This document shows positions 21,051 to 63,953 of a DNA stretch of 64,000 nucleotides, one piece after another. The translations under genes were made by a program, and so were the position numbers. Below the pieces are notes generated by a model that worked only from the letters and a program-made list of their open reading frames with translations, had not been told where the DNA came from and searched no databases. This stretch comes from Moringa oleifera (lineage: Eukaryota > Streptophyta > Magnoliopsida > Brassicales > Moringaceae). Where the stretch lies: positions 4,838,001 to 4,902,000 of the forward strand of contig JAJFZO010000609.1 of the NCBI GenBank assembly GCA_021397835.1. Direction: 5' to 3'. Within the stretch, counting starts at the first letter, position 1. Every line of letters starts with the position of its first letter.

Positions 21051-21064
21051 GTTAACTTTCATAG

Positions 21065-34276: not shown

Positions 34277-34312
34277 CACTACTACAAAAATTATAATAAT
34301 TGATATCAATTT

Positions 34313-34525: not shown

Positions 34526-34771
34526 CACCAAAATTGTAGCAGCATCGGTTGCTGTTGCTTTCCTTGCTGCAGCTGTAGCTGCTGTTGCTGCAAGAGGCAG
34601 CACCAAGGTCCGGATTGAAGACCAAAGAACTTGCATTATTGAAGACCAAAGAATGTGAACCTTCCCATTCTCTAGGCAGAGGACAAGGAAAAAGCTCCCA
34701 TCGTCGAATCAGGAGAAAGAGCAAGCAAAAGTCAAAATCCACAGGCAGAACAATTTGCAATCCACTGCTGG

Positions 34772-35665: not shown

Positions 35666-35759
35666 TGGTACCTTGCTTTTTAAGGGTGGGGATCTAAATT
35701 TTTTTCCAGAGGCCTCTAGAGCCCGCCATAACATCCCGCTTCATTTTTTCTCTCTAAGG

Positions 35760-38129: not shown

Positions 38130-38133
38130 GCAG

Positions 38134-38756: not shown

Positions 38757-39129
38757 ATCTTGAAGATTTTTGTACACATGACCATTATTGAATTTACATA
38801 GTTGAATTTTTAGGATTGTGTAATATTTTAACTTATGTATTGTACATATAGAGTTCAATTATAACATTAAACATTAGTGATCTTTTGTTTTGTTTGTCTC
38901 TTATTACTTTTTTGGATTAGATTATTTTGAGTGTTTTCAGATATGAAAGAAGTAATAACGATCTCTATTAGAATGGTATTGAAGTGTATAACATAAAAAT
39001 TTTGGTTGCATATATATTGTGAAGAATTGTATTGATGTATATTGATGATGTGAAAACAGGTTTTGGATAATTTGAATTTTATTTATTTTGAAATAAATAC
39101 AAAAAATACCTTTAATGGGTATCCCTTTT

Positions 39130-39592
39130 TAACGACAGTTTCAACAGAACTGTCGTTAAAGGGTCCCCCTTTTTAATGACAGTTTCGTTGGAACTGTCAT
39201 TAAAGGGCATCCCCCTTTAACGGCAGTTCTGTTCGAAACTGTCGTCAAAGGGTACCACCTTTAACGACAGTTATGTTGGAACTGTCGTTGAAGGGTGCCC
39301 CCTTTTAACGACAGTTATGTTGGAACTGTCGTTGAAGGGTACCCCCCTTTAACGACAGTTCTATTGGAATTGTCGTTGAAGGGTACCCCCACTTTAACGA
39401 CAGTTCTGTTGGAACTGTCGTTAAAGGGTACCCCCCTTTGATGACAGTTTCAATAGAACTGTCATTAAAAGGTAATGTTTTCAATGACAGTTCCATAACT
39501 GTCATTAAAACTTCTTTCCTTTGATGACATGAACAAAGATGACAATTTTACAACTGTCATTAAAAACCATTTTTAACTGTCATTAAAGGTTT
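39130..39592. repeat. Right sub-terminal hairpin array of the CACTA element
   Basis: About nine or ten units, most about 55-60 bases apart, pair TTTAACGACAGTT with AACTGTCGTTAAAGGG. GGGTACCCCC-type spacers lie between units, and the outermost units decay to GATGACA forms. The minus ORF 39,305-39,505 is the repeat read through. There are about twice as many units as at the left terminus. Confidence 0.9.
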
Positions 39593-39606
39593 TATTTGTA
39601 ATAGTG

Positions 39607-42600
39607 AACTATAACTTTTATGTAAAACCAATGGCTCTATCTCGCTCAAATATGTCTAAAAAGTTATGAATCAAACCAATAAAGAAGATTTCTATAAAAA
39701 AGAAATTTAGAAATGATGGCTAACTATTTTTATTTTTCTATTCTAGTTAAACAATGACATAAAAATAAGTACAATTAAAAACATCAAAGTCAACAGTGAT
39801 GAGTGCCTACCCTAACTTATGAAAGGTGAGGTGTTCCAACAAAGGATCCACAAATACTATAAACACACAGGATATGACAACACTTACTAGTCATCGCATA
39901 TTATTTAATTTGTAGATCTCTAAGGGAACATTAACTTCAAAGGAAAAAGGATTAACTAGATTAAAAAATATAAGTGATTGAAAAATTAACCTTCATTGAA
40001 ATAAAGAAGAATAAAGAAAAAAAATTGAATTTGTATTCTTTGGCATAAGAGTGGAAGCATTACCTAAATTTACTAGGTGTTAAATCAACAATCATATTTT
40101 GATATGCATATATAATAAGGTAGGTAGACATACAAATATGCAAGTTATAGATTAAAAGCAAGAAAGAGAAAGATTGTCTTATTTTGGTTGCATGCGAAAG
40201 AATAAAATAGGCCTTAATATTGATTGATGCCAATCCATTTTTTGGGTTCTTATAATTATAACATATCCCCTTCCCCCCTCAAAAAAAAAATGTTGTCTCA
40301 CCAAAACAAATCCATAAAGCAGTTGATCAAATTAGTGAAAAGTCATCTATCAACAAAAGAACATTTAAAAATGATAACTCACTCTCCTTATTTTTCTATT
40401 ATGCTTAAATAGTTCTAAATAAAAAAAGCATAATTCACAAAATTAAAACCAATAATAACCTTTTTGGTGACCATGACATTGTACGATGAGCAGCTTATAA
40501 AAAGGTGTTTTCAAAAAGGATCTACAAATACTATGAGCAAACCCAATTGGATAACACTTATCGAATACTACATGTTGATTAATTTGCAGATCTCCATAAA
40601 AATATCAAATGCAAATAAAGAAATATGAACTTGTTAAATAATAGAAGTGACCAAAAGAAAGATGAACTTGGTTTAAAAAATAAAAGTAACTAGAAGATTA
40701 ACTTTCATTAAAATACAAAAGTCTAAACAAAAATGTTTATTTTGTATGCCCAAATAGAAGTATGAAAGCATTGCCTAATTTATTGTGCATTAAATCATTG
40801 CCTAATTTATTGTGCATTAAATCAAGAGTTTGCTCAAAAAAATTTATTAGAAAATGTATATGCAATTACATACATAAATAAATAGGATAAGCAAACAAGC
40901 AGATTATATGTTGAAAACAAAAGGCAAACAAGCAGATTGCCTTATTTTGGTTGACCCAAAAGAGTCAAGCAGGCCCTGCTTTGGTTAATCCAAAAGAAAA
41001 AAGCACGCCTTGTTTTGGTTGACAACTATCCATTTATTGGCTATAGAATTATAACTTCCATAGAAAATCAATTGTTGTGACTCCATAAGACATAACTAAA
41101 AAGTTGTGTAACCAGTGAAGAAGTCTTCTATTAACCAAAAAATGTTTAAATGGCTAACTACTTTTCTTTTTTAATTCTAGTTAAGGAGTGGCATAAAAAA
41201 AGACATAGTTTAAAATATTAAAACAATAACCTTCTTAGTGACAAGAAACTACATGATGAGTAACTATCGTAGATTTTTTTAGAGGTGAGGTGTTTTCAAA
41301 CAAGATCTACAAATACTATAAATAGACACAATTGGACAACACTTGTGAAGTGTAATTTGCTGATCTTCATAGCAGCATTCCTAAGATCTCATCAATTTTC
41401 ATAGAAACAATAAAATCAGAAGAACTTTGGGTACACATGATTGTATGCAAAAGTTCCACAACATCATAACTAAATAACCCCTTTGTTGCTTTAAAAAATA
41501 TTAGATGACTTGCACCTCTTAGGTCATGTGTACTAGCATTGGTTATAAAAGATAAAAGTCAAAAAAAAACTAGAAATATATTCATACGTTAAATTTCACT
41601 CATACAATATCAAGCTTCTACTTCACCTTTTTATGAACATTAAGCTTTATGAGTTAACAAAAATGAAACAATAAGCAGAAATCACCAAGAAGTATACATA
41701 AATCCTTATAGAAAATCTGGGAGTCATACAATACATTTCCCTTCCAAAAGTGGGAAGAAAGTGTAAAAATGAATAAATAAAGAATAAGTGAGAACAACGA
41801 AAGGTTATAGGGATAAGAATATCTAATCATGTTACAGTTGGTCTTTGTTGCAAACATTTAACTTAAAAGGATCCCAAGGGTTCAAAAAATCAATTGCAAT
41901 ACACTCAAGAACTTACCGATTAAGCTCAACCAAATCACCAAATACCATACACAAATTCGCATAATTGTTCTTGAAGCAATGAACATCAAGAAAATAGTTT
42001 ACGCAAAACCAGCATGTTAGTTACCAGTATGTAAAACTAAAAAGAACAATGACATTGAAACCGTTGACCACTTAATTTCTTAAATTGAAATATAGAATAA
42101 AGCATATGAAATAAAAGAAAATTGCAAAATTGGTTTGTTTTAAGATGCTCTAAAACATCATAACAAAACTAAAATATTCACTATAGGATATTGAAAAGAT
42201 TTTACCTAGAAAAGGAAAATGGAAAAGTCACATAAAACAAGGATATTGCTCCGCACAATACCACTTATGATTGCTTTTGTTAATGCAGAAACAGGTTGGT
42301 CCTCAACACCATCCTCTCTTATTGGAGTGTAGATAGCCACTAGTCAGTACCCTCACATCATCAACATTAGCTTCGTATATCCTCCCAGTCTTTCTTATAG
42401 TATCATCAAATGAGTTTATACAAAAATGAAACTTTTAAGAAACCAAGGGATATAGTACCAGCTAATTATTTCTAAGAAAATATATAATCTATGAAGTAAA
42501 AACGTGTCATAAGTTAGCTAATAAAAATATAACTGGAACCAATATGATAGTAAAAGGCACAATATAAATAAATACTAGAGCCTATATACAGCAGAAAAAA

Positions 42601-43330
42601 AGTTACACAAACTATTTCCCTTATTCTCATGTAACCGTTCAAACTTGCTAGGCCTTTTTTACCTTCAAAGTACTCTCTAAATCCTTTGATAATATTTCCT
42701 TCAATGGTATCTCTGATAATTCGGACATTACTAATGGATGGAGTTGCCATCAGGTAACATAATCATTTTTTCATCCATTATCACCATTTTTTAGGGTTTA
42801 AAAAAATTAACAATGGAGAATGTTCAAACAGTTGTAGAGAAAAACACATATTTGCTATGAGACATGATAATAATTGACCCTTAAATTTTAACGAGATAGT
42901 GTTAGAACAAGCAGTTGGCATACTTAATCAAATTTAACAAGGCAAACACAAAGCACAAGTATACACAGACACACAACCACATGGAGTAATAACATATACA
43001 TATACGATCCCCTAAGGACATATGTAAAAGTAATACAAACACTCAAGCAAAACAAAAAAAGAAAAAGAACATAAATTTGACAAAGTCAAAGAAGATTAGA
43101 AATAGTTACTTGGCATAACTCCAATACGCAATAACAATCCTTGTTAGCCCCAGCCACGAAATCTAAATATACAATCCTTGTCAGCTTAGGCTCAAGAAAG
43201 CATCTCCATTCATCCAAACCCTTGAACACTTAATTCTGTATGTTGAAATACAAAATAAGCCATAAAAATTAAAAGAAAGCTGCAAAACTTGTTGGTTTTT
43301 AAATTGTCACAGCAGCAGATTGAAAAGATT
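39607..43330. repeat. Segmental duplication, copy B, right part
   Basis: Counterpart of 19,310-22,990, including the three degenerate units (about 39,600-41,350), the exon-like piece near 41,400-41,485 and the start of the 410-bp array. Apart from these I see no gene. Minus ORFs at 41,654-41,857 and 42,514-42,750 follow the copy-A frames and contain repeat modules. Confidence 0.85.
40769..40822. repeat. 27-bp tandem duplication private to copy B
   Basis: CATTGCCTAATTTATTGTGC plus ATTAAAT occurs twice back to back. Copy A has a single version near 20,461. It is a small post-duplication event. Confidence 0.9.
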
Positions 43331-46300
43331 TTACCCAAAAAAGGAGAAAGGAAAAGCCAAAAAAAAAAGGATATTGGTCTGTATATTACCACTAGTGATT
43401 GTTTCTATTAATGCAGAAACAAGTTGGCCTTTAACACCATCCTCTCTTACTCGAGTGCAGATAGCCACTAGTTAGTACCCCTACATCATTAACATTAGCT
43501 TCATACATTCTCCCTGTCTCTCCTACAGCATCATCATCAAATGAGTCTGTACAAAAAAAGAAACTTTTAAGCAACCAAGGGATATAGTACCAACTAATTA
43601 TCTCTAAAAAAATATCTAATCTATGATGTAGAAGCATGTCATAAGTTTAGCTAACAAAATATAAATGGAACCAATAGCATATTAACTAAAAGAAAACTGC
43701 AAAATTAGTTGGTTTCTAAATGCTCAAAGTAAGACAATGAAAAGATTTTACCCAAAAGAGGAGAAGAAAAAAGCCACAAAAAGAAGGATACTGCTCCGTA
43801 CATAACCAATACTGATTGGTTTTGTTGATGCAAAAATAAGTTAGCCCCCAACAACATCCTCTCTTACTGGAGTGCAGATAACCACTAGTTAGTACCTCTA
43901 CATCATCAACATTAGCTTCATACATCCCCCCTATCTCTCTTAGAGCATCATGAAATGAGTTTGTATAAAAATTAAACTTTTAAAGAACTAAAGGATATAG
44001 TACTAGTTGATTATCTTTAAGAAAATATCTAATCTATGAAGTAGAAGCATGTTATAAGTTTAGATACAAAATATAAATAGAACCAATAGCATATTAACTA
44101 AAAGAAAGTTACATAATTAGTTTGTTTCTAAAATCTCACATTAGGACATTGAAGATATTTTACCCAAAAAAAGAGAGCAAAAATCCACAAAAAGAAGGAT
44201 ACTACTTTGCACATTAGCACCAGTGATTGGTTCAATTGATGCAGAAATAAGTTGGCCCTCAACAGCATCCTCTCTTATTAAAGTGCAGATAAGAACTAAT
44301 TAGTACTCTTACATCATCAACATTAGCTTCATGCATCCTCCTTATAACTCGTGTAGCATTATCAAATGAGTTTGTACAAAAATGAAACTTTTAAGCAACT
44401 AAGAGATATAGTACTAGTTTGTTATCTTTAAGAAATTATCTAATCTATGAAGTAGACGCATGTCATAAGTTTAGTTAACAAAATATGAATGGAACCAATA
44501 GCATATTAACTAAAAGAAAGTTGCAAAACTGGTTGGTTTCTAAATGCACACAGTGGTACATAGAAAAGATTTTATCGAGAAAAAAGAGAAGGGCAAAGCC
44601 ATAAAAAGAAATATACTACTTTGCACATCACCACCAGTGATTGGTTCTGTTGATGATGAAACAGGTTGGCCCTCCACACCATCATCTCATACTAGAGCGC
44701 AAACAGCCACTAGTTAGTACCCCTATATCATCAACATTAGCTTCATACATCCTCTGTGTCTCTCTTGCACCATCATCAAATGAGTCTATACAAAAATTAA
44801 GCTTTTAAGTAACGAAAGGATATAGTACTAACAAATTATGTTCAAGAAAATATCCAATCTATGATATAGAAGCATGTCATAAGTTTAGCTAACAAAATAT
44901 AAATGGAACAAATGGCATATTAACTAAAAGAAAGTTGCAAAACTAGTTAGTTTCTAAATGCTCGCACTATAACATTGAAAAGATTTTACCCACAAAAGGA
45001 GAACGAAAAAGCCACAGAAAGAAGGAAATTGCTCTATACACTACCATCACAGATTGGTTCTGTTCATGCAGAAAGAGGTTAGCCTTCAACCCCATCCTCT
45101 TTTACTGGAGTGCACACAGCAACTAGTTAATACTCCAACATCACCAACATTAACTTCACACATCCTCCATGTCTCTCGTGTAGCATCATTAAATGAGTCT
45201 ATATGAAAATGAAACTTTTAAGCAACCAAGGGATATAGCACTAGTTAATTATCTTTTGAAAATTATCTAATCAACAAAGTAGAAGCATGTCATAAGTTTA
45301 GCTAACAAAATATGAATGAAACCAATAGCATACTAACTAAAAGAAAGTTGCAAAACTCGTTGGTTTCTAAATGTTCACAATAGGACATTGAAAAGATTTT
45401 ACCTAAAAAATGAGAAGGTAAAAGCCATAAAAAGAAAGATACAGCTTTGCACATTACCACTAGTGATTGGTTCTGTTGATGCAGAAATAGGTTGGCCGTC
45501 AACACAATTCCTATATTACTGGACTGCAGACAGCCACTAGTTAGTACCCCTACATCATCAACATTAGTTTCACACATCCTCCATGTCTCTCATGCAGCAT
45601 CATCAAAAGAGTCTCTAAGAAAAAAGAAACATTTAAACAATCAAGAGATATCATACTAATTAATTATCTCCATGAAAATAGCTAATCGATGATGTAGAAG
45701 AGTATCATAAGTTTAGCTAACAAAATATAAATGGAACCAATAGTATATTAACTAAAAGAAAGTTGCAAAACTTGTTAGTTTTTAAATGCTCACACTAGGA
45801 CACTAAAAAGATTTTACCCAAAAAAAGGAAAAAGAAAAAGCCACAAAAAGAAGGATATTGATTTACACATTACCACCACTTCTTAGTTCTGTTGATGCAA
45901 AACAGGTCGGCCCTCCATACCATCCTCTCTTACTAAAGTGCAGACAGCCACTACTTAATACCCCCACATGAGTTACGCTGGCTTCATACATCCTCTCTAT
46001 CTCTCCTACAACATCAGCACATTAACCTATACAAAAACGAAACGTTTAAGTAGCCAAAGGATGCAGTACAAGTTAAATTTATCTAGAAAAATATCAAATC
46101 TATGAAGTAGAAGCATGTCGTAAGTTCAGCTAACAAAATATAAATGGAACCAATAGCATATTAACTAAATGATAGTTGCAAAATTGGTTGATTTCTAAAT
46201 GCTCAAAGTATTACATTGAAAAGAATTTACCCAGAAAAAGAAAAGGGAAAAGCCACAAAAATGAGGATACTACTTCGCGTTTAACCACCAATGATTGGTT

Positions 46301-49300
46301 TTATTTGATGTAAAAAAACATTAGCTCTCAACACCATCCTCTCTTACTAAATTGCAGATAGCCACTAATTAGTACCCCCACATCATCAACATTAGCTTCA
46401 TACATCCTCCCTGTCTCTCCTACAGCATCGACAAATGAGTTTATACAAAAATGAAACTTTAAGGCAACCAAGAAATGTAGTACTAGTCAATCATCTTAAG
46501 GAAAATATATAATCTATGATGTAGAAGCATGTCATAGGCTTAGCAAACAAAATATAAATGAAATCAATAGCATATTTACTAAAAGAAATTTACAAAGCTT
46601 GCTGGTTTCTAAATACTCACAGCAGGGCATTGAAAAGATTTTACCCGAAAAAAAAAAGAACTAAAAAGCCAAAAAAAGAAGGATATTGCTCTCCACTTTA
46701 CCACCAGTGGTTAATTCTCTTGATATCAAAATAGGTTGGCCCTCCATACCATCCCCACTTACTGGAGTGCAGACAACCACTACTTAGTACCCCCACATCA
46801 TTAACATTAGCTTCATACATCGTCCTTATATTTCTTACAGCATCAGCACATTAGTTTATAGAAAAACAAAACGTTTAAGCAGCCAAGGAATGTAGTACTA
46901 GTTAATTATTTCTAGAAAAATTTCGAATCTATGAAGTAGAAGCATGTCACAAGTTTAGCTACCAAAATAGAAATGGAGCTAATAGCACATTAACTAAAAG
47001 AAAGTCGCAAATTCGGTTGGTTTCTAAATGCTCACAATATGACATTAAAAAGATTTTATCCAAAAAAAGAGAACGAAAAATCCCCAAAAAGTAGGATATC
47101 GCTCTGCACTTTACCACCAGTGATTGGTTCTATAGATGCAAAAACAGGTTGGCCCTCAACAACAATCTTTTTTACTGGAGTGCAGACAGCCACTAGTTAG
47201 GACCATCACATCATCAACATTAGCTTCATACATCCTCCCTGTCTCTCATGCAGCATTAGCAAATTAGTCTGTCCAAAAATGAAACTTTTAGGCAACCAAG
47301 GGATGTAGTACTAGTTAATTATCTCGAAGAAAATATATAATCTATGATGTAGAAGCATGTCATAAGTTTAGTAAATAAAATATAAATGGAACCAATAGCA
47401 TATCTACTAAAAGAAATTTGTAAAAGTTGTTGGTTTCTAAATGCTCACATAAAGGCATCGAAAAGATTTTACCGAAAAAAAGAGAAGGGAAAAGCCACAA
47501 AACGATGGATATTGCTCTGCACATTACCACCACTCATTAGTTATGTTGATGCAAAAACACGTTGGCCCTCCACACTATCCTCTCTTACTAGAGTGCAGAG
47601 AACTACTACTTAGTACCCCCACATGATTAACATTAGCTTCATACATTCCCCCTGAGACCTCTTGCAGCATCAACACATTAGTCTATACGAAAATGAAACG
47701 TTTAAGCACACAAGGGATGTAGTACTAGTTAATTATGTTTAGGAAAATATCAAATCTATGAAGTAAAAGCATGTCATAAGTTTAACAAACAAAATATAAA
47801 TAGAACCAATAGCATATTAACTAAAAGAAATTTGCAAAACTTATTGGTTTCTAAATGCTCACAGTAGAGCATTTAAAAGATTTTATCCAAAAAATGAGAA
47901 TGGAAAAGCCACAAAAAGAAGGATATTGCTCTGCATATTACTACCATTGATTAGTTCTATTGATGTAAAAATAGGTTGGCCCTCCATACCATCCTCTCTT
48001 ACTAAAGTGCAGACAACCAACAACTTGGGACCCCCACATGATTAATGTTAGCATTATAGATCCTCCCTATCTCTCTTATAGCATCAACACATTAGTCTAT
48101 ACAAAAATGAAATGTTTAAACAACCAAGGGATGTAGTATTAGTTAATATCTCTAGGAAAATATCGAATTTATGAAGTAGAAGCATGTCATAAGTTTAGCA
48201 ACAAAATATAAATGAAACCAATAGCATATTAACTAAAAGAAAGTTGCAAAACTTATTGGTTTTTAAATGCTTACCATAGGGCATTAAAAAGATTTTACCC
48301 AAAAAAGGAAAAAGGAAAAGCCACAAAAATAAAGATATTGCTTTGCACATTACCACCTCTTATTAGTTCTGTTAACGCAAAAATAGGTTGGCCTTCCACA
48401 CCATCCTTTCTTACTTGAGCGTAGACAACCACTACTTAGTACCCCCACATGATTAACGTTAGCTTCATACATCCCCTTTAGACCTCTTACAGCATCAACA
48501 CATTAGTCTATACAAAAATGAAACGTTTAAGTAGCCAAAGGATGTAGTACAAGTTAATTATCTCTAAGAAAATATCGAATCTATGAAGTAGAAGCATGTC
48601 ATAAGTTTAGCTAACAAAATATAAATGGAACCAATAGCATACTAACTAAAAGAAACTTGCAAAACTAGTTGGTTCTAAATGCTTAAAGTATGAGATTGAA
48701 AAGATTTTACCCAGAAAAAGAGAAGGGAAAAGTCACAAAAAAGAGGATATTGCTCCATACTTTACCACCGATGATTGGTTCTGTTGATACAGAAACACGT
48801 TAGCCCTCAACACTACCCTCTTTTACTAGGGTGCAGACAGCCACTAGTTAGTACCCCCACATCATCAACATTAGCTTCATACATCCTCCTTGTTTCTCCT
48901 ACAGCATTGACAAATGAGTGTATACAAAAATAAAAGTTTAAGGCAACCAAGGGATGTAGTACTAATTAATCATCTCAAGAAAAGTATATAATTTATGATG
49001 TCAAAGCGTGTCATAAGTTTAGCAAACAAAATATAGATGGAACCAATAACATATTAACTAAAAGAAATTTGCAAAACTTGTTGGTTTCAAAATGCTCACG
49101 TTAGGGCATTGAAAAGATATTACCCGAAAATGGAGAACAAAAAAGCCACAAAAAGAAAGATATTGCTCTGCATATTACCACTATTGATTAGTTCCGTTGA
49201 TGTCAAAATAGGTTGGCCCTCCATACCATTCCTTTTTTCTGGACCGCACACAACCACAACTTAGTACCCCCACATCATTAACATTAGCAATATACATCGT

Positions 49301-52300
49301 CCTTGTCTCTCCTGCAGCATCAGCACATTAGTCTATACAAAAATAAATCATTTAAGCACGCAAGGAATGTAGTACTAGTTAATTATCTCTAGCAAAATAT
49401 CGAATCTATGAAGTGAAAGCATGTCATAAGTTTAGCTAACAAAATATAAATGGAACCAATACCATATTAACTAAAAGAAAGTTGCAAATTCGGTTGGTTT
49501 CTTAATGCTCATTGTATGACATTGAAAAGATTTTATCCAAAAAAATGAGAAAGGAAAAGCCACAAAAAGAATGATATCGCTCTACTATTTACCACCAGTG
49601 ATTGGTTCTGTTCATGTAGAAATAGGTTGGCCCTCAATAACATTCTCTCTTACAGGAGTGCAAACAGCCACTAGTTAGTACCCTTACATCATCAACATTA
49701 GCTTCATACATCTTCCCTATCTCCCGTGCAGCATCGGTAAATGAGTGTATACAAAAATGAAACTTTTAGGCAAGCAAGGGATGTAGTACTAGTTAATTAT
49801 CTCGAGGAAAATATATAATTTATGATGTAAAAGCATGTCATAAATTTAGCAAACAAAATATAAATGGAACCAATAGCATATTTACTAAAAGAAATTTGTA
49901 AAACTTGTTGGTTTCTAAATGCTCACACTAAGGCATCGAAAAGATTTTACCCAGAAAAGGAGAAGGGAAAAGCCACAAAGAGATGGACATTGCTATGCAC
50001 AATACCACCGCTGATTAGTTTTGTTGATATAAAAATAGGTTGACCCTCCACACTATCCTCTCTTTTGCAGATAGCCATTTGTTAGCACCCCCACATGATT
50101 AACGTTAGCTTCGTACATCCCCTTTAAGACCTCTTACAGCATCAACACATTAGTCTATACAAAAATGAAACGCTTAAGCACCCAAGGGATGTAGTACTAG
50201 TTAATTATCTCTAGCAAAATATCAAATCTGTGAAGTAGAAGCATGTCATTAGTTTAACTAACAAAATATAAATGAAAACAATAACATGTTAACTTAAAGA
50301 AAGTTGCAAATTCGGTTGGTTTTCAAATGCTCATAGTGTGACATTGAAAAGAGTTTATTGAGAATAAGAGAAGTGAAAAGCCATAAAAAGAAGGATAGTG
50401 CTCTGGACTTTACCACCGCTGATTGGTTATGTTGATGCACAAACAGGTTGGCACTTTACCACTGCTGATTGCTTTGCACTACCAGTCTCTCCTCCAATAT
50501 CGGCAAATGAGTCTCTACAAAAATGAACCTTTTAAGAAACCAAGGGAAGTAGTACTAGTTAATTATCTTGAGAAAAATATACAATCTATGATGTCGAAGC
50601 AGGTCATACATTTAGCATATAAAATATAGATGGAACTAATAGCATATTAACTAAAAGAAATTTGCAAAACTTGTTGGTTTATAAATGCTCACAGTTGGGC
50701 ATTAAAAATATTTTACCCAAAAAAGGGAAGGAAAAGCCACAAAAAGAAGGATATTGCTCTGCACATTACCACCACTGATTAGTTTTGTTGATGTAAAAAG
50801 AGGTTGGCCTTCCACATCATCCTCTCTTATTGGAGTGCAGACAGCCACTACTTAGCACCCCTACATGATTAACGTTAGCTTCATACATCCTCCCTGTCTC
50901 TCTTACAACATTCGCACATGAGTCTATACAAAAATGAAACATTTAAGCAACCAAGGGATGTAGTACTAGTTAATTATCTCTAGTAAAATATGAAATCTAT
51001 GAAGTAAAAGCATGTCATAAGTTTAGGTAATAAAATATAAATGAAACCAATAGCATATTAACTAAAAGAAAGTTGCAAAACTGATTGGTTTCTAAATGCT
51101 TATAATATGTCATTGAAAAGATTTTACCCAGAAAATAAGAAGGGAAAAGCCCTAAAGAAAGGATACTACTCCGTACTTTACCATCAATGATTGGTTCACT
51201 TGATGTAGAAACATAACACCATCCTCTGGAGTGCAAAAACCTACTAGTTAGTACCGCCACATCATCAACATTAGCTTCGTACATCCTACCTATCTCTCTT
51301 GCAACATAGGCAAATGAGTCTCTACAAAAATGAAACTTTTAAGCAACCAAGGGAAGTAGTACTAATTAATCATCTCAAGGAAAATATATAATCTATGATG
51401 TCAAAGCATGTCATAAGTTTAGCAAGCAAAATATAGATGGAACCAATAACATATTCACTAAAATAAATTTGCAAAACTTGTGGGTTTTGAAATGCTCACA
51501 GTAGGGCATTAAAAAGATTTTACCCAAAAAAGGAGAATGGAAAAGCCACAAAAAAGGGCATTACTTTGCACATTACCACCACTAATTAGTCTTGTTGATG
51601 TAAAAACAGATTGGCACTCCACACCATCTTCTCTGGAGTGCAGACAGCCATCACTTACTACCCCCACAAGATTAACTTTAGCTTCATACATCCCCTTTGA
51701 GACCTTTTATAGCATCAACATATTAGTGTATACAAAAATGAAACGTTTAAGTAGCCAAGAGATGTAGTACTAGTTAATTATCTCTATAAAAATATCGAAT
51801 CTATGAAGTAGAGATATGTCATAAGTTTAGGTAATAAAATAAAAATGGAACCAATTGCATATTAACTAAAAGAAAGTTGTAAAACTAGTTAGTTTCTAAA
51901 TGCTCATAGTATGTCATTGAAAAGATTTTACCTAGAAAAGGAGAATGGAAAAGCCCCAAAAAGAACATAATGCTTTGCACTTTACCATCAGTGATTGGTT
52001 CTGTTGATTCAGAAACAGGTTGGCCCTCAACACCATCCTCTCTTACTGGAGTGCAAACACCCACTAATTAGTACCCTTGCATCATTAACCTTAGCTTTAT
52101 ATATCCTACCTATCTCTCTTATAGCATCGGCAAATAAGTCTCTACAAAAATGAAACTTTTAAGCAACCAAGGGAAGTATTACTAATTAATCATCTCGAGA
52201 AAAATATATAATTTATGATGTCGAAACATCTCATAAGTTTAGCAAACAAAATATAGATGGAACCAATAGAATGTTAACTCAAAGAAATTTGCAAAACTTA

Positions 52301-55300
52301 TTGGTTTATAAATGCCCACAGTAGGGTATTAAAAAGATTTTACCTAGAAAAAGAGAAAGGAAAAGCCACAAAAGGAAGGACATTACTCTGCACATTACCA
52401 TCAATGATTAGTCTCATTGGTGTAAAAACAGGTTGGTCCACCACACCATCCTCTCTTACAAAAATGCAGACAACCACTGCTTAGCACCCCCACATGATTA
52501 GCATTAGCTTCATACATCTTTCATGTCTCTTCTACAACATTAGCACATGAGTCTATACAAAAATAAAACGTTTAAGGAGCCAAGGGATGTAGTACTAGTC
52601 AATTATCCCTAGGAAAATATCGAATCTATGAAGTAGAAGCATGTCATAAGTTTAGATAATAAAATATAAATGAAACCAATAGCATATTAACTAAAAAAAA
52701 GTTGCAAAATTGGTTGGTTTTTAAATGCTCATAGTATGTCATTGAAAAGATTTTACCCAGAAAATAAGAAGGGAAAAGCCCTAAACAAAGGATACTACTC
52801 CGTACTTTATCATCAATGATTGGTTAACTTGATGCAGAAACAAGTTAGCCCTTAATACCATCCTCTGGAGTTCAAAAACCCACTAGTTAGTACCGCCACA
52901 TCATCAACATTAACTTCATACATCCTACCTATCTCTCTTGCAGCATGGGCAAATGAATCTCTACAAAAATGAAACTTTTAAGCAACCAAGGGAAGTAGTG
53001 CTAATTAATCATCTCAAGGAAAATATATAATCTATGATGTCAAAGTATGTCATAAGTTTAGCAAATAAAATATAGATGGAACCAATAACATATTAACTAA
53101 AAGAAATTTGCAAAACTTCTTGGCTTCAAAATGTTCACAGTAAGGCATTAAAAAGATTTTATCCAAGAAAAGAGAATGGAAAAGCCACAAAAAGAAGGAC
53201 ATTACTCTGCACATTACCACTACTGATTAGTCCTGTTGATGTAAAAATAGGTTGGCACTCCACACCATCCTCTTTTACTAGAGTGCAGACAGCCACTACT
53301 TACTACCCCCACAGGATTAACGTTAGCTTCATACATCCCTTTTGAGACCTCTTACAACATTGACATATTAGTCTATACAAAAATGAAACGTTTAAGCAGC
53401 CAAAGGATGTAGTACTAGTTAATTATCTCTAAGAAAATATTGAATCTATGAAGTAGAGGTATGTCATAAGTTTAGGTAATAAAATATAAATCGAACCAAT
53501 TGCATATTAACTAAAAGAAAGTTGCAAAACTATTTGGTTTCTAAATGCTCATAGTATGTCATTGAAAAGATTTTACCTAGAAAATGAGAAGGGAAAAGCC
53601 CCAAAAAGAAAGATAATGCTTTGCACTTTACCATTAGTGATTGGCTCTGTTGATGCAAAAACAGGTTGACCCTCAACACCATCCTCTCTTAGTGGAGTGC
53701 AAATAGCCACTAGTTAGTACCTCTACATCATCAACATTAGCTTCATACATCCTCCGTATCTCTTGTGCAACATCGGCAAATGAGTTTGTACAAAAATAAA
53801 ACTTTGTAATAACCCAGGGATGTAGTACTAGTTAATTATCTTGAGAAAAATATATAATCTATGACATAGAAGCATGTCATGAGCTTAGCAAACAAAATAT
53901 AAATGGAACCAATAGCATATTAACTAAAAGGAAGTTGTAAAACATGTTGGTTTCTAAATTCTCGCAATACGGGATTGAAAAGATTTTACCTCGAAAAAGA
54001 GAAAGGAAAAGCTGCAAAAAGAATGATATTGCGTTGTACATTACCACCAATGATTAGCTATGTTGATGCAAAAAACAGGTTGGCCCTTGACACCATTCAT
54101 TTTTACTAGAGTGCGGACAACCACTACTTAGTACCCCTATATGATCAGTGTTAGCTTCATACATCCTCCTTATCTGTCCTATAGCATCAGCACATGAGTT
54201 TGCACAAAAATGAAACGTTTAAGCAGCGAATGGATGTAGTACTAGTTAATTATCTTTAAAAGAAAATATCAAATTTATGAAATAGAAGCATGTCATAAGT
54301 TTAGTTACCAAAATATAAATGGAACTAATAGCATATCAACTAAAAGAAAGTTGCAAAACTGGTTGGTTTCTAAATGCTCATAGTATGACATTGAAAAGAT
54401 TTTACCCAAAAAAAAAACGAAAAAGCCACAAAAGGAAGGATACAACTCTGCACTTTACGACCGGTGATTGGTTTTGCTTATATAGAAATAGGTTGGCCGT
54501 CAACACCATCCTCTCTTGTTAGATTGCAGACAATCACTAGTTAGCACCCCCACTTCATCAAAATTAGCTTCATACATCCTTCGTGTCAATCCTACAGCAT
54601 AACTTCATGAGTCTGTGCAAAAGAGAAACTTTTAAGCAAACAAGAGATATAGTACTAGTTAATTATCTCGAGGAAAATATATAATCTATGATGTAGAAGC
54701 ATGCCATAAGTTGAGCTAACAAAATATAAATAGAACAAATAACATATCGACAAAAAGGAAGTTGCAAAAACTTATTGGTTTCTAAATGCTCAGAGTACGG
54801 CATTGAAAAGATTTTACCTAGAAAAGGTGAAAGGAAAAGCAAGATAAAGAAGGATGCTTTCATGTACATTACCACCAATGATTAATCCTATTGATGCAGA
54901 AAGGGGTTAGCCCTCAATGCCTTCCTCTCTCACTGAAGTGTAGATAACCAGTACTTAGTAACCCCACATGAATCAACATTAGCTTCATACATCCTCCCTG
55001 TCTCTTATGCAGTATCATCAAATGAGTCTACACAAAAATGAAACTTTTTAACAACGAATAGATATAGTACTTGTTAATTATCTCAAGGAAAATATCTAAT
55101 CTGTGATAAGGAAGCATGTCATAAGTTTAACTAATAAAACATAAATGGAACAAATAGCGTGTTAACTAAAAAAATATTGAATAACTGGTTTGTTTCTGAA
55201 TGCTCACAATAGGACATTGAAAATATTTTACCAAGAAAAGGGGAAGGAAAAAGTCACAAGAACAAGGATAGTGCTCTGCATATTACCACTAGTGATTGAT

Positions 55301-58300
55301 TCTCTTGATGGAGAAATACGTTGAACCTCAACACCATCCCCTCTTAGTGGAGTGTAGACACCCACTAGTTAGTACACCAACATCATCAACATTAAGGTCA
55401 CACATCTTCCTTGTATCTCTTATAACATCAAATAAGTCTGTACAAAACATAAATATCTAACTTGTGAAGTAGAAGCATATCATAAGTTTGGCTAACAAAA
55501 CATAAATGGAACCAATAGCATATTAACTAAAAGAAAGTTGCATAACTAGTTTGTTTCTAACTGCTCAAAATAAGACGTTGAAAAGATTTTACCTAGAAAA
55601 GGAAAAAGGAAAAGCCACAAGAAGAAGGATAATGCTCTGCACATTACCACTAGTGATTGGCTCTGTTGATGCAGGAAAAGGTTGGCCCTCAACACAATTC
55701 TTCTCTTAGTGGAGTGCAGACAGCCACTAGTTAGTACCCCTACATCATTAGCATTAGCTTCTCACATCCCCCGTGTCTCTCATGCAGCATCATCAAATGA
55801 GTCTGTATAAAACATATATATCTACCCTATGAAGTACAAGCATCTCATAAGTTTAGCTAATAAAACATAAATGGAACTAATAGTATATTAACTAAAAGAA
55901 AGTTGCATAATTGGTTTATTTCTAATTGCTCAGAATAGGACATTAAAAAGATTTTACCTAGAAAAGGAGAAGGGAAAAGCCACGAGAAGAAGCATACTAC
56001 TCTGCACATTACCACTAGTGATTGGTTCTGTTGATGCATAAACAGGTTAAACCTCAACATCATCCTCTCTTAGTGGAGTGCAAATAGCCACTAGTTAGTA
56101 CACCAACATCATCAACATTAACGTCACACATCCTCCCTGTATCTCCTGCAACATCATCAAATGAGTCTATACAAAAATGAAACATTTAAGCAAGCAAGGG
56201 ATATAGTATTAGTTAATTATCCTTAGAAAAATATCTAATCTATGAAGTAGAAGTATGTCATAAGTTTAGCTAATAAAATATCAATGGAACCGATAGCATA
56301 TTAACTAAAAGAAAGTTGTAAAATTGGTTGGTTTCTAAATGCTCACAGTAGGACATTAAAAAGATCTTACCCAGAAAAGGAGAAGGGCAAAGCCATAAAA
56401 AGAATGATAGTGCTCTGGACATTAACACTAGTGATTGATTCTATTAATGATGAAATAGGTTGGCCCTCCACATAATCCTCTCATACTTGAGTGCAGACAG
56501 CCACTAGTTAGTCCCCCCACATCATCAACATTGGCTTCATACATCCTCCGTGTCTCTCCTGCAGTATTAGCAAATGAATCTGTACCAAACTGAAATTTTT
56601 AAGCAACCAAGGGATATAATACTAGTTAATTATCTGTAGAAAAATATTTAATCCATGAAAAATAATTATTTCATAAGTTTACTTAATAAAATATAAATGG
56701 AACCAATAGCATATTAACTAAAAGAAAGTTGTAAAACTTGTTTATTTCTAAATGCTCATAATGGGATATTGAGAAGATTTTATCAAGAAAAAGAGAACAA
56801 AAAAGTCATAAAAAGAAAGATATTGCTTCGCACATTACCAGGAGTGATTAGTTCTGTTGACGCAGAAATTGGTTGGACCTCAATAACATCCTCTCTGTAG
56901 CCACTAATTACTACCCCGACATTATCAACATTACCTTCATACATCTCCCCTCTCTCTTGCAGCATTATGAAATGAGCCTGTACAAAGCTTTTAAGTAACC
57001 AATGGATCTAGTACCAGTTGATTATCTCTAGAAAATTATCTAATCTATGAACTAAAAGCATGTCATCAGTTTAGCTAACAAAATATAAGTATAACCAATA
57101 GCATATTAACTAAAAGAAAGTTGCAAAACTTGTTGGTTTTTAAATGCTCACAGCGAGGCATTGAAAAGATTTTACCCAGAAAAGGAGAAGGAAAAAGCCA
57201 TAAAAAGAAGGATATTGTTGTGCATATTACCACCAATGATTAGTTTTGTTGATGTAGAAACACGTTAGCCCTCTACACCATCCTCTCTCACTGAAGGGCT
57301 GAAAGCTGATACTTAGTACACCCACATGATCAATGTTAGCTTCATGCATTCTCCTTGTCTTTTCTACAGCATTAGCAAATGAGTCTATATAAAAATGAAA
57401 CCTTTGAGTAGCCAAAGGATGTAGTACCAGTTAATTATCTATAAGAAAATATTAAATTTATGAAGTAGAAGCATGTCATAAGTTTAGCCAACAAAATATA
57501 AATGAAACCAATAGTATATTAACTAAAAGAAAGTTGCAAAATTGGTTAGTTTCCAAATGCTCATAGTATGACATTAAAAAGATTTTACCCAGAGAAGGGA
57601 AAAGCCACAAAAAGAAGGATACTACTATGCACTTTACCCCGAGTGATTGGTTCTGTTGATGTAGAAACAAGTTGGCCCTCAACACCATCCTTTCTTACTG
57701 GAGTGCAGACAGCTACTAGTTAGTACCCCCATATCATCAACATTAGCTTCATACATATTTTGTGTCTCTCTTGCAGCGTGATCTCATGAGTCTGTACAAA
57801 AATGAACCTTTTAAGCAAATAAGAGATATAGTACTAGTTCACTATCGCGAGGAAGATATATAATCTATGATCTTAAAGCATACCATAAGCTTAGCTAACA
57901 ATATATAAATGGCACCAATAGCATATTAATTAAAAGAAAGTTGCAAAACTTGTTGGTTTCTAAATGCTCACATTAGAAAATTAAAAAGACTTTACCCAGA
58001 AAAGGCTAACAGAAAAGCTATAAAAAAAAAGGATATTGCTCTGCACATTACCACCAATGATTAATTATGTTGATGTAGAAACAGGTTGTCCCTCCACACC
58101 ATCCTCTCGTACTCGAGTGTGGATAGCCAATACTTAGTGCCCTCACATGATCAATGTTAGCTTCACACATCGTCCGTGTCTCTCTTATAGCATCATAAAT
58201 AAGTCTACACAAAAATGAAACCTCAGAGCAGCCAAGGGATGTAATACTAGTTAATTATCTCATAGAAAAATTGAATCATGAAGTAGAAGCATATCATAGG

Positions 58301-61260
58301 TTTAGCTAACAAAATATAAATAGAACCAATAGCATATTAACTAAAAGAAAATTATAAAACTTATTAGTTTTCAAATGCTCACAGTATGACATTGAAATGA
58401 TTTTACTCAGAAAAAGAGAAAGGAAAAGCCACAAAAGAAGGATACTCCTCTCCACTTTACCACCGGTGATTGGTTTGGCTGATGTAGAAATAGGTTGGCC
58501 CTCAATACCATCCTCTCTTACTAGAGTGCAGACAGCCACTAGTTAGTACCCCCACATCATCAATATTAGCTTCATACATCCTTTCTGTCTCTCATGCTGC
58601 ATCATCTAATGTGTTTTTACAAAAATGAAACTTTTAAGCAATCAAAGGATGTAGTACTTGTAAATTATCTCGAGAAAAATATATAATCTATAAAGTAGAA
58701 GCATATCATAAGTTTAGCTAACAAAATATAGATGGAACCAATGGCATATTAACTAAAAGAAAGTTGCAAAACTTATTGGTTTCCAAATGCTCACAGTAAA
58801 GCATTGAAAAGATTTTACCTGAAAAAAGAAAGGGAAAAGCCACAAAAAAAAGGATATTGTTATGCACATTACCACGAGTGATTAGTTTTATTAGTGCAGA
58901 AACTGATTAGCCTTCTACACCATCTTCTCTTGCTGGAGTGCATACAGTAACTCGTTAGTACTCCCACATCAACATTAGCTTCGTATATCCTTCATCTCTC
59001 TCCTGTAACATCATCAAATGAGTTTGCATAAAAATGAAACTTTTAAGCCACCAAAGGATATAGTACTAGTTAATTATCTCTAGAAAAATATCTAATCTAT
59101 GAAGTAAAAGCATGTCATAAGTTTAGCTAACAAAATATAAATGGAACCAATAGCATATTAACTAAAAGAAGTTTGCAAAACTGGTTGGTTTCTACATGCT
59201 CATAGTAAGATATTGAAAAGATTTTACTTAGAAAAGAGAAGGAAACAGCCACAAAAAGAACGATACTACTCTGCACTTTACGACATGTGATTAGTTTTGT
59301 TGATGTAGAAACAGGTTAGCCGTCAACACCATCCTCTCTTATTAGAGTGCACACAGCCTTTAAATAGTATCCCCACATCATCAACATTAGTTTCATCCAT
59401 TCTCCCTGCAACTCCTACATCATCATCAAATGAGTCAGTACAAAAATGAAACTTTTAAGTAGTTAAGGGATATAATATTAATTAATTATTTTTAAGAAAA
59501 TATCTAATCTATGAAGTAAAAGCATGCCATAAGTTTAGCTAGCAAAATATATATTGAACTAATAGCATATCAACTAAAGAAAGTTGCAAAACTTGTTGGT
59601 TTCTAAATGCTCATAGTAGGACATTGAAAAGATTTTGCTCAAAAAAGGGGAAAGGAAAAGCCACAAAAAGAAAGATATTGTTCTACCCCCAGTGATTGGT
59701 TCTGTTGATGCAGAAACAGGTTGGCTCTCAATACCATCCTCTATTATTTTAGTGCAAAGAGCAACTAGTTAATACCTCCCATATCATCAACATTAGCTTC
59801 ATACATCCTCCATGTCTCTTCTGTAGTATCATCAAATGAGTTTGTACAAAATTGAAACTTTGAAGCAATCAAGGGATATAGTACTATTTAATTATCTCTA
59901 AAAAAATATCTAATCTATGAATTAGAAGCATGTCATAAGTTTAGATAAAAAAATATAAATGAAACCAATAACATATTATTTGAAAGAAAGTTGCAAAACT
60001 AGTTTGTTTTGAAATGCTCACAGTAGGACATCGAAAAGATTTTACCCAGAAAAGGAAGGAAAAGCCACAAAAACAAGGATACTATTTTGCACATTACCAC
60101 TATTGATTGGTTTTGTTGATGCAAAAACAAGCTGGCCCTCAGCACCATTCTTTCTTATTATAGTGCAGACAGCCACTAATTTGTACTGCCACATGATCAA
60201 CATTAGTTTCATACATCCTCCCTGTCTCTCTTGTAGCATCATAAAGTTTGAACAAAAATGAAACTTTTAAGCAACCATGGGGTATTGTACTAGTTAATTA
60301 TCTCTAGGAAAATATCGAATCTATGAAGTAGAAACATGTCATAAGTTAACTAATAAAATATAAATGAAACTAATAGCATATTGACTAAAAGAAAGTTGCA
60401 AAACTTTTTGGTTTTTAAATGCTTAGAGTAGGACATTGAAAAGATTTTACGCAAAAAAAAGAGAAGGGAAAAGCCACAAAAAGCAGGATATTGCTCTAGA
60501 CATTACTGCCAGTGAATGGTTCTGTTGATGCCAAAACAGGTTGGCCCTCCACACCATTTTTTCTTACTAGAGTGCACACAGCCACTGGTTAGTGCCCCAT
60601 ATCATTAACATTAGCTTCATACATCCTTCATGTCTCTCTTATAGCATCATTAAATGTGTCTGTACAAAAATAAAACTTTTAAGCAACCAAGGGATATGGT
60701 ATTAGTTAATTATCTCTAAGAGAATATCTAATCTATGAAGTAGAAGCATGTCATAAGTTTAGCTAAGAAAATATAAATGAAACCAATAGCATATTAACTA
60801 AAAGAAAGTTGCAAAACTAATTTGTTTTGAAATGCTCACAGTAGGACATTGAAAAGATTTTACCTAGAAAAGGAGAAAGGAAAAGCCATAAAAAGAAGGA
60901 TACTACTTTACACATTACCACCAGAGATTGGTTGTGTTGATGTAAAAACAGGTTGGCTCTCAACACCATCCTCTCTTATTGGAGTGCAAACAGCCATTAG
61001 TTTATACCCCTACATCATCAACATTAGCTTCATACATCCTCCTTTTCTTTCCTACAGCATCATCAAATGAGTTTGTAGAAAAATAAAACTTTTAAGCAAC
61101 CAAGTGATATAATAGTAGTTAATTATTTTTAGGAGAATACCTAATCTATGAAGTAGAAGCATGTCATAAGTTTAGCTAACAAAATCTAAATGGAACCAAT
61201 AATATATTAGAAGGTACACCATAAATAAATGCAATAACATATAATGAACTGCAGTAAAAA
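42180..61260. repeat. About 410-bp tandem repeat array B (about 45 units)
   Basis: The landmark CATCATCAACATTAGCTTCA or its CATGATTAACGTTAGC variant recurs about every 405-417 bases from 43,482 to 61,015. Shorter units of about 360-400 bases lie near 55,400-56,900, and one collapsed unit lies near 50,480. Two unit types differ at several linked sites: type A (catcatcaacatt; aaacttttaagc; gatgtagaag) and type B (catgattaacgtt; aaacgtttaagc; gaagtagaag). They alternate between about 50 and 54.5 kb and again near 57-58.6 kb. Both-strand ORFs of 60-90 codons inside units are by-products. The minus strand carries the exon-like cassette described at 28,649-28,741. Confidence 0.93.
51015..54320. repeat. 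Four-unit higher-order repeat of about 1.64 kb, two copies
   Basis: A unit with a private deletion (ATCCTCTGGAGTGCAAAAAC near 51,220) and an ACTACTCCGTACTTTA variant recurs about 1,640 bases later (near 52,860), in the same order with its neighbours. Unequal crossover or replication slippage has therefore copied blocks of four units. Confidence 0.7.
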
Positions 61261-61272
61261 AGTTACACTTAC

Positions 61273-62968
61273 CCAAAGTCCTCATTTTCATATTGTGTAA
61301 CAATGAGAAGGAATCCTTTGACCAATGTAGGAGTTTAAGTGAGCACAGAATTTGTAAAGTTAAAATGACCTCACCACAAGAACTAAAGAAATAGGCATAA
61401 TTTTTTCGTGGTGGCATATGTAACTACTGGGCTTATTTCTCTTCCAATCAACAATTAATCTGGTCAAGAATGGGCTCCAGAGACCAGCCCTTAGATTGGG
61501 AATAAAAGGAAAAGGTGCAATTACAGCACAAATAAAAATTTAAGAAAAATAATGAGAAATGTCAAGTTATGATTATAAGATTACCTCAATTATGTCTTCA
61601 GGAAGCAAAAATATTAAGCATCCAAGTTTTCTTGCAATACTGATGATGTAGGTGGCATTCATCTTTTTATCCTCTTCTGCAATGCTCACAAGTTAGAAAA
61701 AGGAACAATAAGTAGAATAAGAGAATCATTCTAAAAGATTTCAATTAAGACTCCATATAAGAAGTTTAAATTATAAACATCATTCTAGAATCAGACTAGC
61801 ATTTTCCTACACAGCTATAGGTTACGCAAACTTCAAAGAAAAGTGAATACTTTAAAAAGGTTATTAGCCTTCATGGTCTTGGTGAAGGTTATGTTTCAAG
61901 TAGAATGAGGGGGACCAAAGTACAGGCTGTAACTCAAATTCAATCCTTAAAGTTAAGTTATATCATGAAAATATAAAAAGTGAGCCTAATACAAGCAGTA
62001 GTCTGTACTCAGCACATATGCCCCGGTATATTTCCTATGTTTCACCAAGGTAGAAGAGCATTCTAGGCTTTAACATAATTAATGCGCCATTGTACTAGTT
62101 CTAAAATTTTATGAAATATCATCCATTATTCCATTGATAAGAAAAACTTCAATGACCAGGGGTCTAGTTAATTGATGAAACATAAAACACATAAGATTGG
62201 AATAAATCAGACCTGTCATTCCTTTTGTTACGAGAGCCCAATTTACAACTCTACGATGCACTGCACTAAGTAGTTCAAGGAAAAAAATTCCATCTGATAA
62301 ACTATTATCCTGCAAAATTGAAAGGGCATTAATTCACAAATCGAATTTCTTTTACCCCATAATGTTTATGGATGAACCCACTCAAAAGCCTTGATTTTAG
62401 ACTCCTAAGATCTAAGTTCAGATTAAGCACAGAGAACAATTACATATACAAAATGAAGCTAGTTATGGGAACACACCTTAAAACTATCCATCCGAGTCTG
62501 GCTTCCAGAGCTGCTCACTTTGGTGTTGGGCCATTGTAGAACATCAACATTAGTGATTTCTTTTCCATGAGAATGAAACTTCAAGTTCTTTCGAAGTTGG
62601 AGAATGTTAAATCTCATCAATTGCCACAAACAAGCTAAAAAAAAAATTGAACATTCTTAAGACAAAAGCCTTAACCATGTGCTTCTAGACAAAAGAAAAA
62701 ATCAATGTGCTGGTGCAAGTCTTTGAATGCTGCAAAAAGCATTCATCATACAGTTCAACACTTTTTGCAAAACTTATTAGCATAGTAAGAGACATACCTA
62801 ATATCAGTTTTTTGTTTCCTTGTACAATGTCATTTTCGGCAATGTTAGCCAAGGAAAACTTCAACTGTTTTCCTATTTTTACAACTTGATTACAGTTTTT
62901 TACTTTTTTGAATGGCAACTTTATAGTAGGCTTGTTTGCAATTCTCCAATTGACAATCCCTGGGAGAT
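61273..62968 (-). pseudogene. Fimbrin (plastin) actin-bundling protein, second actin-binding domain fragment
   Basis: Exons, in transcript order: 62,798-62,968; 62,477-62,634; 62,213-62,309; 61,585-61,676. All have consensus borders, join in phase and are free of stops. They read [37 protein letters not shown], then CLWQLMRFN, then [15 protein letters not shown] and [11 protein letters not shown], then [14 protein letters not shown] and FLLPEDIIE. This is the end of CH3 plus CH4 of plant fimbrin, which cross-links actin filaments. A candidate fifth exon (61,273-61,369) starts in phase with VILTL and HWSKD where the family has VNQKMILTL and YWSLQ, so it looks altered. Everything N-terminal of CH3 is missing; a 5-phosphatase 3' end lies there instead. 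It is therefore a fragment, although the open exons suggest it is fairly recent. Confidence 0.85.
61380..61584. other. Intron-like spacer, nothing recognised
   Basis: Lies between the fourth fimbrin exon and the candidate fifth exon. A short minus-strand WSLEP reading near 61,480 is reminiscent of the family WSLQ but is out of context. Confidence 0.4.
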
Positions 62969-63014
62969 CTTGTGGAGCACACAAGCAAGTGTAGATTTTG
63001 AAGGAGTACATGCC

Positions 63015-63953
63015 TCAAAAAGAAATTAAGGTCAGTGTATCCATGTGAGTATGGAAATAGTTCCTCAACTTCAATCGTAGAACTTGAATAACTCATGCTT
63101 TTCTTGATTCAACTGTGGTTTATGGATTTCTTCTCTGCTAAAAAAAAGCTGTAAACAGGCTTATGATATGAGAACCTTGTTTCCCCACGAGCATAAAATA
63201 GTTGATTCAGGCCTTTCCTATACCAGAGTATATGATCACACCTGGATGAAAAGGGCACAATTAGACACTAACTTTACAGAATTGAATACACAATATGGTC
63301 CACATTATTTCACATGCTCACAATCATGTAATACAAGGCTAATATGATTTCATTGTAAAAGATATGTCACAAATTACCATGCAGGCATTCTTGGCTTCTC
63401 CATTGGATGCCTATCATCACATACATAACTGTCTGAATATTGGAATACTTACAAGTGGGAGGAAAAAATATCTTCCCTTCATTCCATTCCTTGAACACAC
63501 GCCTGCTCTGTCCATAGCTGTAAGCAAAAATCATCAAAAACCATCGAATTTTAGATTGAGCACATTTAAAAGTAGATTGAAAAGAGGAAATTCTGAAAAT
63601 TCAGAAAGAACATCACAAACAAATAAGCATGCCTAGTCACGTCATTCTCTAACAATGCTCTCCAATTGAACATCTCAACAAAAGCCTTTGTAAAGCAATA
63701 AGACAATGCAATCCACTAATTCAAGTCACCAAGCCAAACAATTCGATTGGACTAGGACAAATATGACAGAATTTAAGCTACGTAAGCTAGAACGCTACAG
63801 ATATTGATTCATTAGCTAAGTATAGACGAGCAAATAGTGAGAGTAAAGGCTTTATTCATGGTCGAGAATTGTTTGAAGAGAGTTCTCATCTCCCATGCCA
63901 TTTAGAAACCTTTTCTTCCTTATGATCTCCATAACATCTAAATGAAACTTCCA
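63015..63953 (-). pseudogene. Inositol polyphosphate 5-phosphatase, C-terminal half, broken
   Basis: Exons in transcript order: about 63,855-63,953 (DVMEIIRKKRF...TILDHE), about 63,641-63,745 (RIVWLGDLN-stop-WIALSY...LLEND), 63,378-63,517 (VFKEWNEGKIFFPPT), and about 63,015-63,241 (CDHILWYRKGLNQLF, ARGETRFSYHKPVYS, ending EVEELFPYSHGYTDLNFF). The family removes the 5-phosphate from inositol phosphates and phosphoinositides. Both signatures are damaged: WxGDxNxR is cut by TAG (63,716-63,718), and PAWCDR reads PAW-CDH. There are further breaks. A 2-base loss after KYSN shifts frame in exon 3, and a second shift precedes RVF. TGA lies at 63,109-63,111. The donor after DHE reads ATAAAG instead of GTAAAG. 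The normal C-terminal stop after LNFF is out of frame by one T. Upstream exons lie beyond the window. Confidence 0.85.

Follow-up and report, generated by a model that had tools for sequence, protein, structure and literature searches.

A tandem array of Moringa oleifera read as satellite DNA very probably grown out of an AIR9 pseudogene

We analysed a stretch of 64,000 nucleotides of the Moringa oleifera genome (assembly GCA_021397835.1, contig JAJFZO010000609.1, positions 4,838,001 to 4,902,000 of the forward strand), called here the window and numbered from its first letter. It carries a long tandem array next to fragments of protein genes. An earlier note on this DNA had described about 45 copies of a unit of about 410 bp and had proposed that each holds a 93-nt exon, multiplied behind a fimbrin gene and encoding a variable acidic tail. 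The locus is best read as a chimeric pseudogene cluster of phosphatase, fimbrin and AIR9 pieces, and the array is very probably satellite DNA that grew out of the AIR9 pseudogene.

The window holds a large tandem segmental duplication (17,140-23,327 and 32,060-43,685; copy A and copy B), as indicated by paired matches of 88% (17,140-19,312 with 32,060-34,276) and 86% (19,310-23,327 with 39,607-43,685). Repeat units were mapped on the minus strand with nhmmer, using a model of 409 positions built from 46 full units, which gave 65 unit matches spread over six blocks of the window. Tandem Repeats Finder reported a period of 413 bp at 43,270-50,452, 51,226-55,447 and 55,818-61,209 and of 412-413 bp at 24,139-25,886 and 26,156-27,984, and blastn of the unit against both strands placed all 66 of its matches on the minus strand. 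The tandem array is therefore real, with a unit of about 413 bp, and the count of about 45 copies agrees with the 46 nhmmer matches of the main block, or 45 once a 98-nt partial is dropped. The copy singled out in the note as the best, 28,649-28,741, had been given exactly, as had its translation SFDDAAGETRRMYETNVDEVGVLTNGCLHS. Units differ from one another by about 20%. The six blocks are:

43,266-61,209, minus strand: main array, 46 nhmmer matches, unit of about 413 bp derived, by homology, from an exon of the AIR9 A9 domain and the intron on either side (Tandem Repeats Finder, nhmmer, AIR9 homology).
42,101-42,552, minus strand: terminal unit and a partial of copy B, 2 nhmmer matches; TGA in place of the AIR9 Arg codon (within 42,333-42,350); closest in grouping to the unit at 22,203.
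28,568-29,278, minus strand: two units 5' in copy A, one of which contains 28,649-28,741 (nhmmer, blastn).
24,138-27,984, minus strand: copy A array, 11 nhmmer matches, some partial (also Tandem Repeats Finder).
22,913-23,327, minus strand: one unit and a partial of copy A, 2 nhmmer matches.
21,755-22,203, minus strand: terminal unit and a partial of copy A, 2 nhmmer matches; AIR9 CGA (Arg) kept within 21,986-22,003, the only one among 57 units.

Homology points to AIR9, a 187-kDa microtubule-associated protein with A9 domains (PF23197), as the parent of these units: the array matches it in sequence and in where the exon begins and ends, and the AIR9 exon that comes next, VKQKLDLGSVKFE, is matched too. 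On typed composites, PF23197 was matched above the Pfam cut-off by the first-half exon (E 1.3e-10) and by the second half (E 6.1e-07), the spacers between blocks encoding the first half of the A9 domain (PF23197 positions 1-42) and the units the second (positions 50-86). When the two halves were combined and searched against proteins, 109 candidates came up, 107 of them under threshold. PF23197 was found in all 107, three of which bear names like AIR9, AIR9-like or microtubule-associated protein. Compared with the raw window by tblastn, the retrieved AIR9 relatives matched units, spacers and a short exon past the array. Read in the AIR9 frame, with the stop entered as X, the unit consensus shows 88-91% identity over 42-43 residues to the four best-listed plant relatives. 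A fimbrin cassette is hard to reconcile with this parentage.

The same relatives place the limits of the exon. Among the 107, 43 fit a pattern around GExGRMYEA, with 42 different contexts directly before it, and most of the listed relatives have AVG after STEPI and then varied residues; such changes of context have the look of exon edges in proteins predicted from genomic DNA. The retrieved protein P0078 runs from the unit exon via an intron-like stretch into EPDVLKEVKQKLDLGSVKFE. Both copies have this exon past the array; in copy A it was located by tblastn, in copy B through its identity to the copy-A sequence. From the homology limits, P0078 and this following exon, the native exon reads GCAG/GA...GGTG/GTAATG, starting 21 nt downstream of the acceptor proposed in the earlier note and ending 61 nt past the proposed donor. 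That donor, A/GTAAGAG, coincides with the codons CCA GTA AGA GAG of the AIR9 TPVRED motif, the acceptor falls within an AIR9 intron, and the acidic SFDDAA, once taken as coding, corresponds to translated intron. The two sites would therefore not bound a 93-nt exon, while the idea of a phase-1 exon inside each unit is borne out by the AIR9 exon (phase 1 to 1). Each unit is thus, by homology, an intron-exon-intron piece of the A9 domain of AIR9. Further AIR9 pieces surround the blocks:

42,601-42,747, minus strand: A9 first-half exon remnant in a spacer of copy B (tblastn of P0036; overlapping open reading frame 42,517-42,762).
29,383-29,481, minus strand: A9 first-half exon remnant, copy A (tblastn).
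28,049-28,183, minus strand: A9 first-half exon remnant, copy A (tblastn).
23,382-23,530, minus strand: A9 first-half exon remnant, copy A (tblastn of P0049).
22,260-22,405, minus strand: A9 first-half exon remnant, copy A (tblastn of P0036 and P0049).
21,239-21,297, minus strand: next AIR9 exon downstream of the array, copy A, reading ELDVHKKVKQKLDIG, an in-frame stop and VKFE (tblastn of P0055 and P0078).
41,587-41,646, minus strand: next AIR9 exon, copy B, more decayed, with two in-frame stops (88% identity to copy A; no tblastn match of its own).

Unlike AIR9, this locus holds an internal fragment only, frameshifted and with stops, in which a single exon recurs in 57 spanning units; exon-level counts refer to these 57 unless another denominator is given. 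The native AIR9 exon has 132 nt and the unit consensus 133 nt, a +1 frameshift. Exactly 133 nt are found in 34 of 57 units, and the length leaves a remainder of 1 on division by three in 38, of 2 in 11 and of 0 in 8. The extra base is a G that follows the Gly codon of VGYRLV and precedes its Tyr codon, in a stretch that is ungapped in 54/57 units. With the frame restored, the AIR9 Arg codon is a stop in 50/57 (TAA in 48, TGA in 1, TAG in 1) and remains CGA only in the 22,203 unit. This unit and its TGA-bearing partner at 42,552 adjoin the following AIR9 exon in their respective copies and group together in the tree with a support of 0.95. As a working AIR9 exon the unit fails, since only 11 of 57 are open across it and 7 of these 11 have a length that is not divisible by three. 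The frameshift is near-universal among the units and so would precede their amplification; the exon was probably dead before it multiplied.

We found no trace of constraint in the array. Units depart from the consensus by substitution at a rate of 0.140 within the 93-nt block of the earlier note and of 0.108 outside the extended exon, so that the lower divergence expected of a coding block is missing; after matching for base, only 0.001 separates the native exon from the remainder of the unit, a value that falls close to the centre of the distribution over all circular shifts (0.457). Variation at codon positions 1, 2 and 3 is 0.165, 0.145 and 0.095 over the 72 nt with which that block opens (21 nt of intron included) and 0.163, 0.180 and 0.078 after the frameshift. 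Third positions thus vary least, the opposite of coding constraint. The proposed splice sites are present in many units, if less often than had been stated: AG in 35/59 units (0.59), GT in 34/57 (0.60) and both in 24/56, against a mean of 0.77 for all dinucleotides. Units having both sites together with an open, in-phase block number 10/56, where independence predicts 8.8, and the block is open and in phase in 24/56 units compared with 32.8 +/- 3.8 in a neutral-decay simulation, which begins from a consensus that may differ from the ancestor. There is hence no excess of intact blocks, and neither divergence, site retention nor simulation revealed that the 93-nt block or its splice sites are constrained, as those of a fimbrin cassette would be. 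The AIR9 donor is kept in 52/57 units. The units decay without protein or splice-site constraint, in a head-to-tail array of the kind that characterizes satellite DNA.

The genes beside the array are themselves broken:

61,273-61,369, minus strand: the supposed last fimbrin exon, fimbrin-like at 61,319-61,369 and finishing, at about 61,273-61,292, in what appears to be the end of an AIR9 exon and its donor.
61,585-62,971, minus strand: fimbrin CH3-CH4 fragment with introns, its reading frame broken near 62,952-62,971.
63,017-63,518, minus strand: inositol-polyphosphate-phosphatase-like 3' fragment with an internal stop (its exons, joined and typed in, match PF22669 at E 6.8e-05, which misses the Pfam cut-off).

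With its exons joined by hand, the fimbrin fragment matches the plant fimbrin 1pxy (FIM family) over CH3-CH4 to residue 503 (E 4.1e-50). It is a frameshifted 3' piece without a 5' part, directly preceded by the phosphatase fragment: its VNWRIANK and LACVLHKIS parts lie in different frames, whereas the aligned related fimbrins read straight through. In contrast to plant fimbrin, the array and the donor site are non-fimbrin, and the local fragment is truncated and frameshifted. The phosphatase-like gene is probably of the inositol-polyphosphate kind, and any 5' part of it could lie past the window edge. As for the exon at 61,273-61,369, it does measure 97 nt, and one possible reading leaves the first base of a codon at its end, directly ahead of GTAAGTG. 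Its first 51 nt show a weak, ungapped alignment with the beginning of the terminal exon of fimbrin. Self-matches join 61,225-61,292 to 23,338-23,407 and 60,796-61,292 to 22,913-23,407 (82.9%), and the last 20 nt or so (61,273-61,292) correspond to 23,388-23,407, which is AIR9 exon sequence (SKFEWLCKNKESG, 23,382-23,423). The exon looks like a fimbrin-AIR9 fusion. The match in phase between this exon and the units exists, and it would be explained by the AIR9 derivation of both the exon end and the donor.

Several observations weigh against an AIR9 parentage of the units or against their early inactivation. No Pfam match was obtained with the block peptide alone in the frame of the earlier note (composite letters) or with the literal translation of 61,273-61,369. 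The literal frames 28,848-29,159 and 27,236-27,463 lack PF23197, the latter giving a weak unrelated match to DUF1450 (E 0.0052), and the literal frame 42,517-42,762 matches PF23197 at E 0.0021, below the Pfam cut-off. Pfam scans of the unit therefore need reading across the frameshift, which tblastn does not. The AIR9 acceptor AG is kept in 26/58 units, fewer than the acceptor of the note, and our AIR9 comparison covers the window and database proteins. The exon length is divisible by three in 8/57 units (five of 132 nt; 78, 117 and 120 nt in the others), and 4/57 units are open as well, two of which (29,278 and 27,667) are AIR9-like at both ends. These open in-frame units can be explained most simply by later compensating indels, an older in-frame state being the alternative. 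Among ten literal open frames scanned by Pfam, one gave a fimbrin CH match barely above the cut-off (26.1 against 26), one the sub-threshold A9 match, and there were some weak unrelated matches besides.

How then should the array be understood? That a symmetric 93-nt exon multiplied behind fimbrin, with any number of copies skipped or included to vary an acidic tail, draws on the fit in phase of 61,273-61,369 and on the ten units with AG, GT, the right length and an open frame. Its donor nevertheless belongs to the coding sequence of AIR9 and its acceptor to an AIR9 intron, both are retained less often than the average dinucleotide, and the fimbrin in front of it is frameshifted and without a 5' part. 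Nor do other fimbrins carry such a tail: the 31-residue peptide found nothing credible (best E 0.29) in the 120 relatives compared of the 139 found; only 37 of these 120, having at least 20 residues after an IMYW-type motif, test this point. P0108, P0110, P0115 and P0118 have an ordinary tail, continuous after EVNQKM; P0111 is an exception whose sequence diverges once past EV and may run on into an intron. We consider the cassette highly improbable. The array could instead be a live expansion adding A9 half-domains to a working AIR9 gene, which knows repeated A9 domains (eleven in Arabidopsis AIR9 according to PMC3488599), the more so as the exon is symmetric, the correct next AIR9 exon adjoins in both copies and four units are open with a length divisible by three. 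Most units share the extra G and the stop, though, stops interrupt the frame of the next exon in copy A and copy B alike, the units bear no signal of selection, and the further C-terminal part of AIR9 (P0046 past residue 81, P0106 past 44) had no tblastn match in the window at E 1e-3; we give this expansion hardly any credence. Both the fimbrin tail cassette and the live AIR9 expansion were rejected.

A different question is how the fragments came together. A gene-capturing mobile element of Helitron or Pack type, with the array internal to it, may have assembled them; this is a minority view on our part, to which three gene fragments in one orientation with introns kept, a fimbrin fragment without its 5' part and a phosphatase fragment directly before it lend some colour. 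No element ends were found; the left edges common to the two copies (17,140 and 32,060) have no obvious terminal motif when judged by eye, without a dedicated search. Capture by such an element concerns the assembly of the fragments and is compatible with a satellite derived from AIR9. It is also conceivable, at very long odds, that a chimeric phosphatase-fimbrin-AIR9 unit is still transcribed and that the donor at 61,273 splices into some 45 decoy acceptors and donors, yielding variable tails or regulatory RNAs. The array is most likely inert satellite DNA, in line with the fallback of the earlier note, a satellite born from an exon, for which AIR9 would be the parent.

For a satellite grown out of an AIR9 pseudogene, the history of the locus may have run as follows. 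By homology, an AIR9 fragment (A9 first-half exon, intron, second-half exon, intron, next exon) lay beside the phosphatase-like and fimbrin 3' fragments on the minus strand. The second-half exon would then have gained the extra G and, in most copies, the stop at the AIR9 Arg, changes seen across the units whose order is our reconstruction. The intron-exon-intron piece of about 413 bp may next have been amplified into a head-to-tail array, for which unequal crossing-over or slippage would be the simplest mechanism. The whole stretch would subsequently have been duplicated in tandem, with the copy-B array growing on and leaving the pattern seen at 45.4-53.7 kb, and the units now decay as silent, methylated DNA would. 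At 45.4-53.7 kb units two apart are indeed more alike (0.835) than neighbours (0.791), an odd-even difference reached by 0 of 5000 permutations, and these alternating unit types (45,400-53,700) form a two-unit higher-order repeat of about 826 bp. The long-branched clade behind this dimer pattern, given without a support value, holds copy-B units only.

The two parts of copy B are separated by an element of 5,330 bp (34,277-39,606), which starts with CACTACTACAAA, ends with TTTGTAATAGTG and has AAC on either side; from its features we take it to be of the CACTA type. Copy A has the insertion site without the element near 19,300-19,325. Within the element we noted palindromic subterminal repeats resembling TTTAAYGACAGTT and a 382-bp tandem pair, 98% identical, at 34,779-35,545; three of its open frames had no Pfam match. 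Elsewhere in the window, degenerate plant-telomere-like repeats (CCCTAAA variants) occupy 9,254-16,686, with a similar short remnant directly below 32,060. A 202-bp tandem pair at 29,979-30,387 has in each copy a coding-looking stretch (KKWLGVLPSxAxKxYAFGKFTL), and another such stretch (KQWKDRLPPGYLLKEASINQPFEED) lies near 29.7-29.8 kb. The two coding-looking stretches at about 29.7-30.4 kb had no Pfam match and are possibly further gene fragments.

The decay of the units has a bias of its own. C-to-T (or G-to-A) change reaches 0.275 in the CHG context (28 sites) and 0.124 in the CHH context (125 sites; p 4.5e-12), and the unit consensus contains no CpG at all. The observed/expected ratio of CpG is 0.303 in the whole window and 0.264 in the main array, so its depletion is not specific to the array. 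CHG-biased C-to-T decay together with CpG loss is the expected trace of DNA methylation in plants, and the pattern would fit methylated heterochromatin.

Satellites in general consist of head-to-tail monomers of a few hundred bp with a dimeric higher-order pattern and methylation-like decay, and the present array resembles plant satellites in all three respects. Plant satellites derived from other genomic sequence exist, such as retrotransposon-derived tandem repeats (PMC7004042). Unlike satellites derived from a transposon, this array appears to have its source in an exon of a protein gene with its introns, it is short and its units are about 20% diverged. In the open literature, queried with few choices of words, we found no specific precedent among the papers listed for an AIR9-derived satellite, an exon-born satellite or fimbrin tandem repeats, which is no claim of their absence from print. 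Taken together, our results suggest that a repeat can owe its splice-like motifs and their matching phases to the exon from which it descends, no function being necessary, and that such features should be read with caution. They also point to a satellite whose origin would still be legible: which gene it came from, which exon of that gene, what changes inactivated it, and the flanking exons that remain attached.

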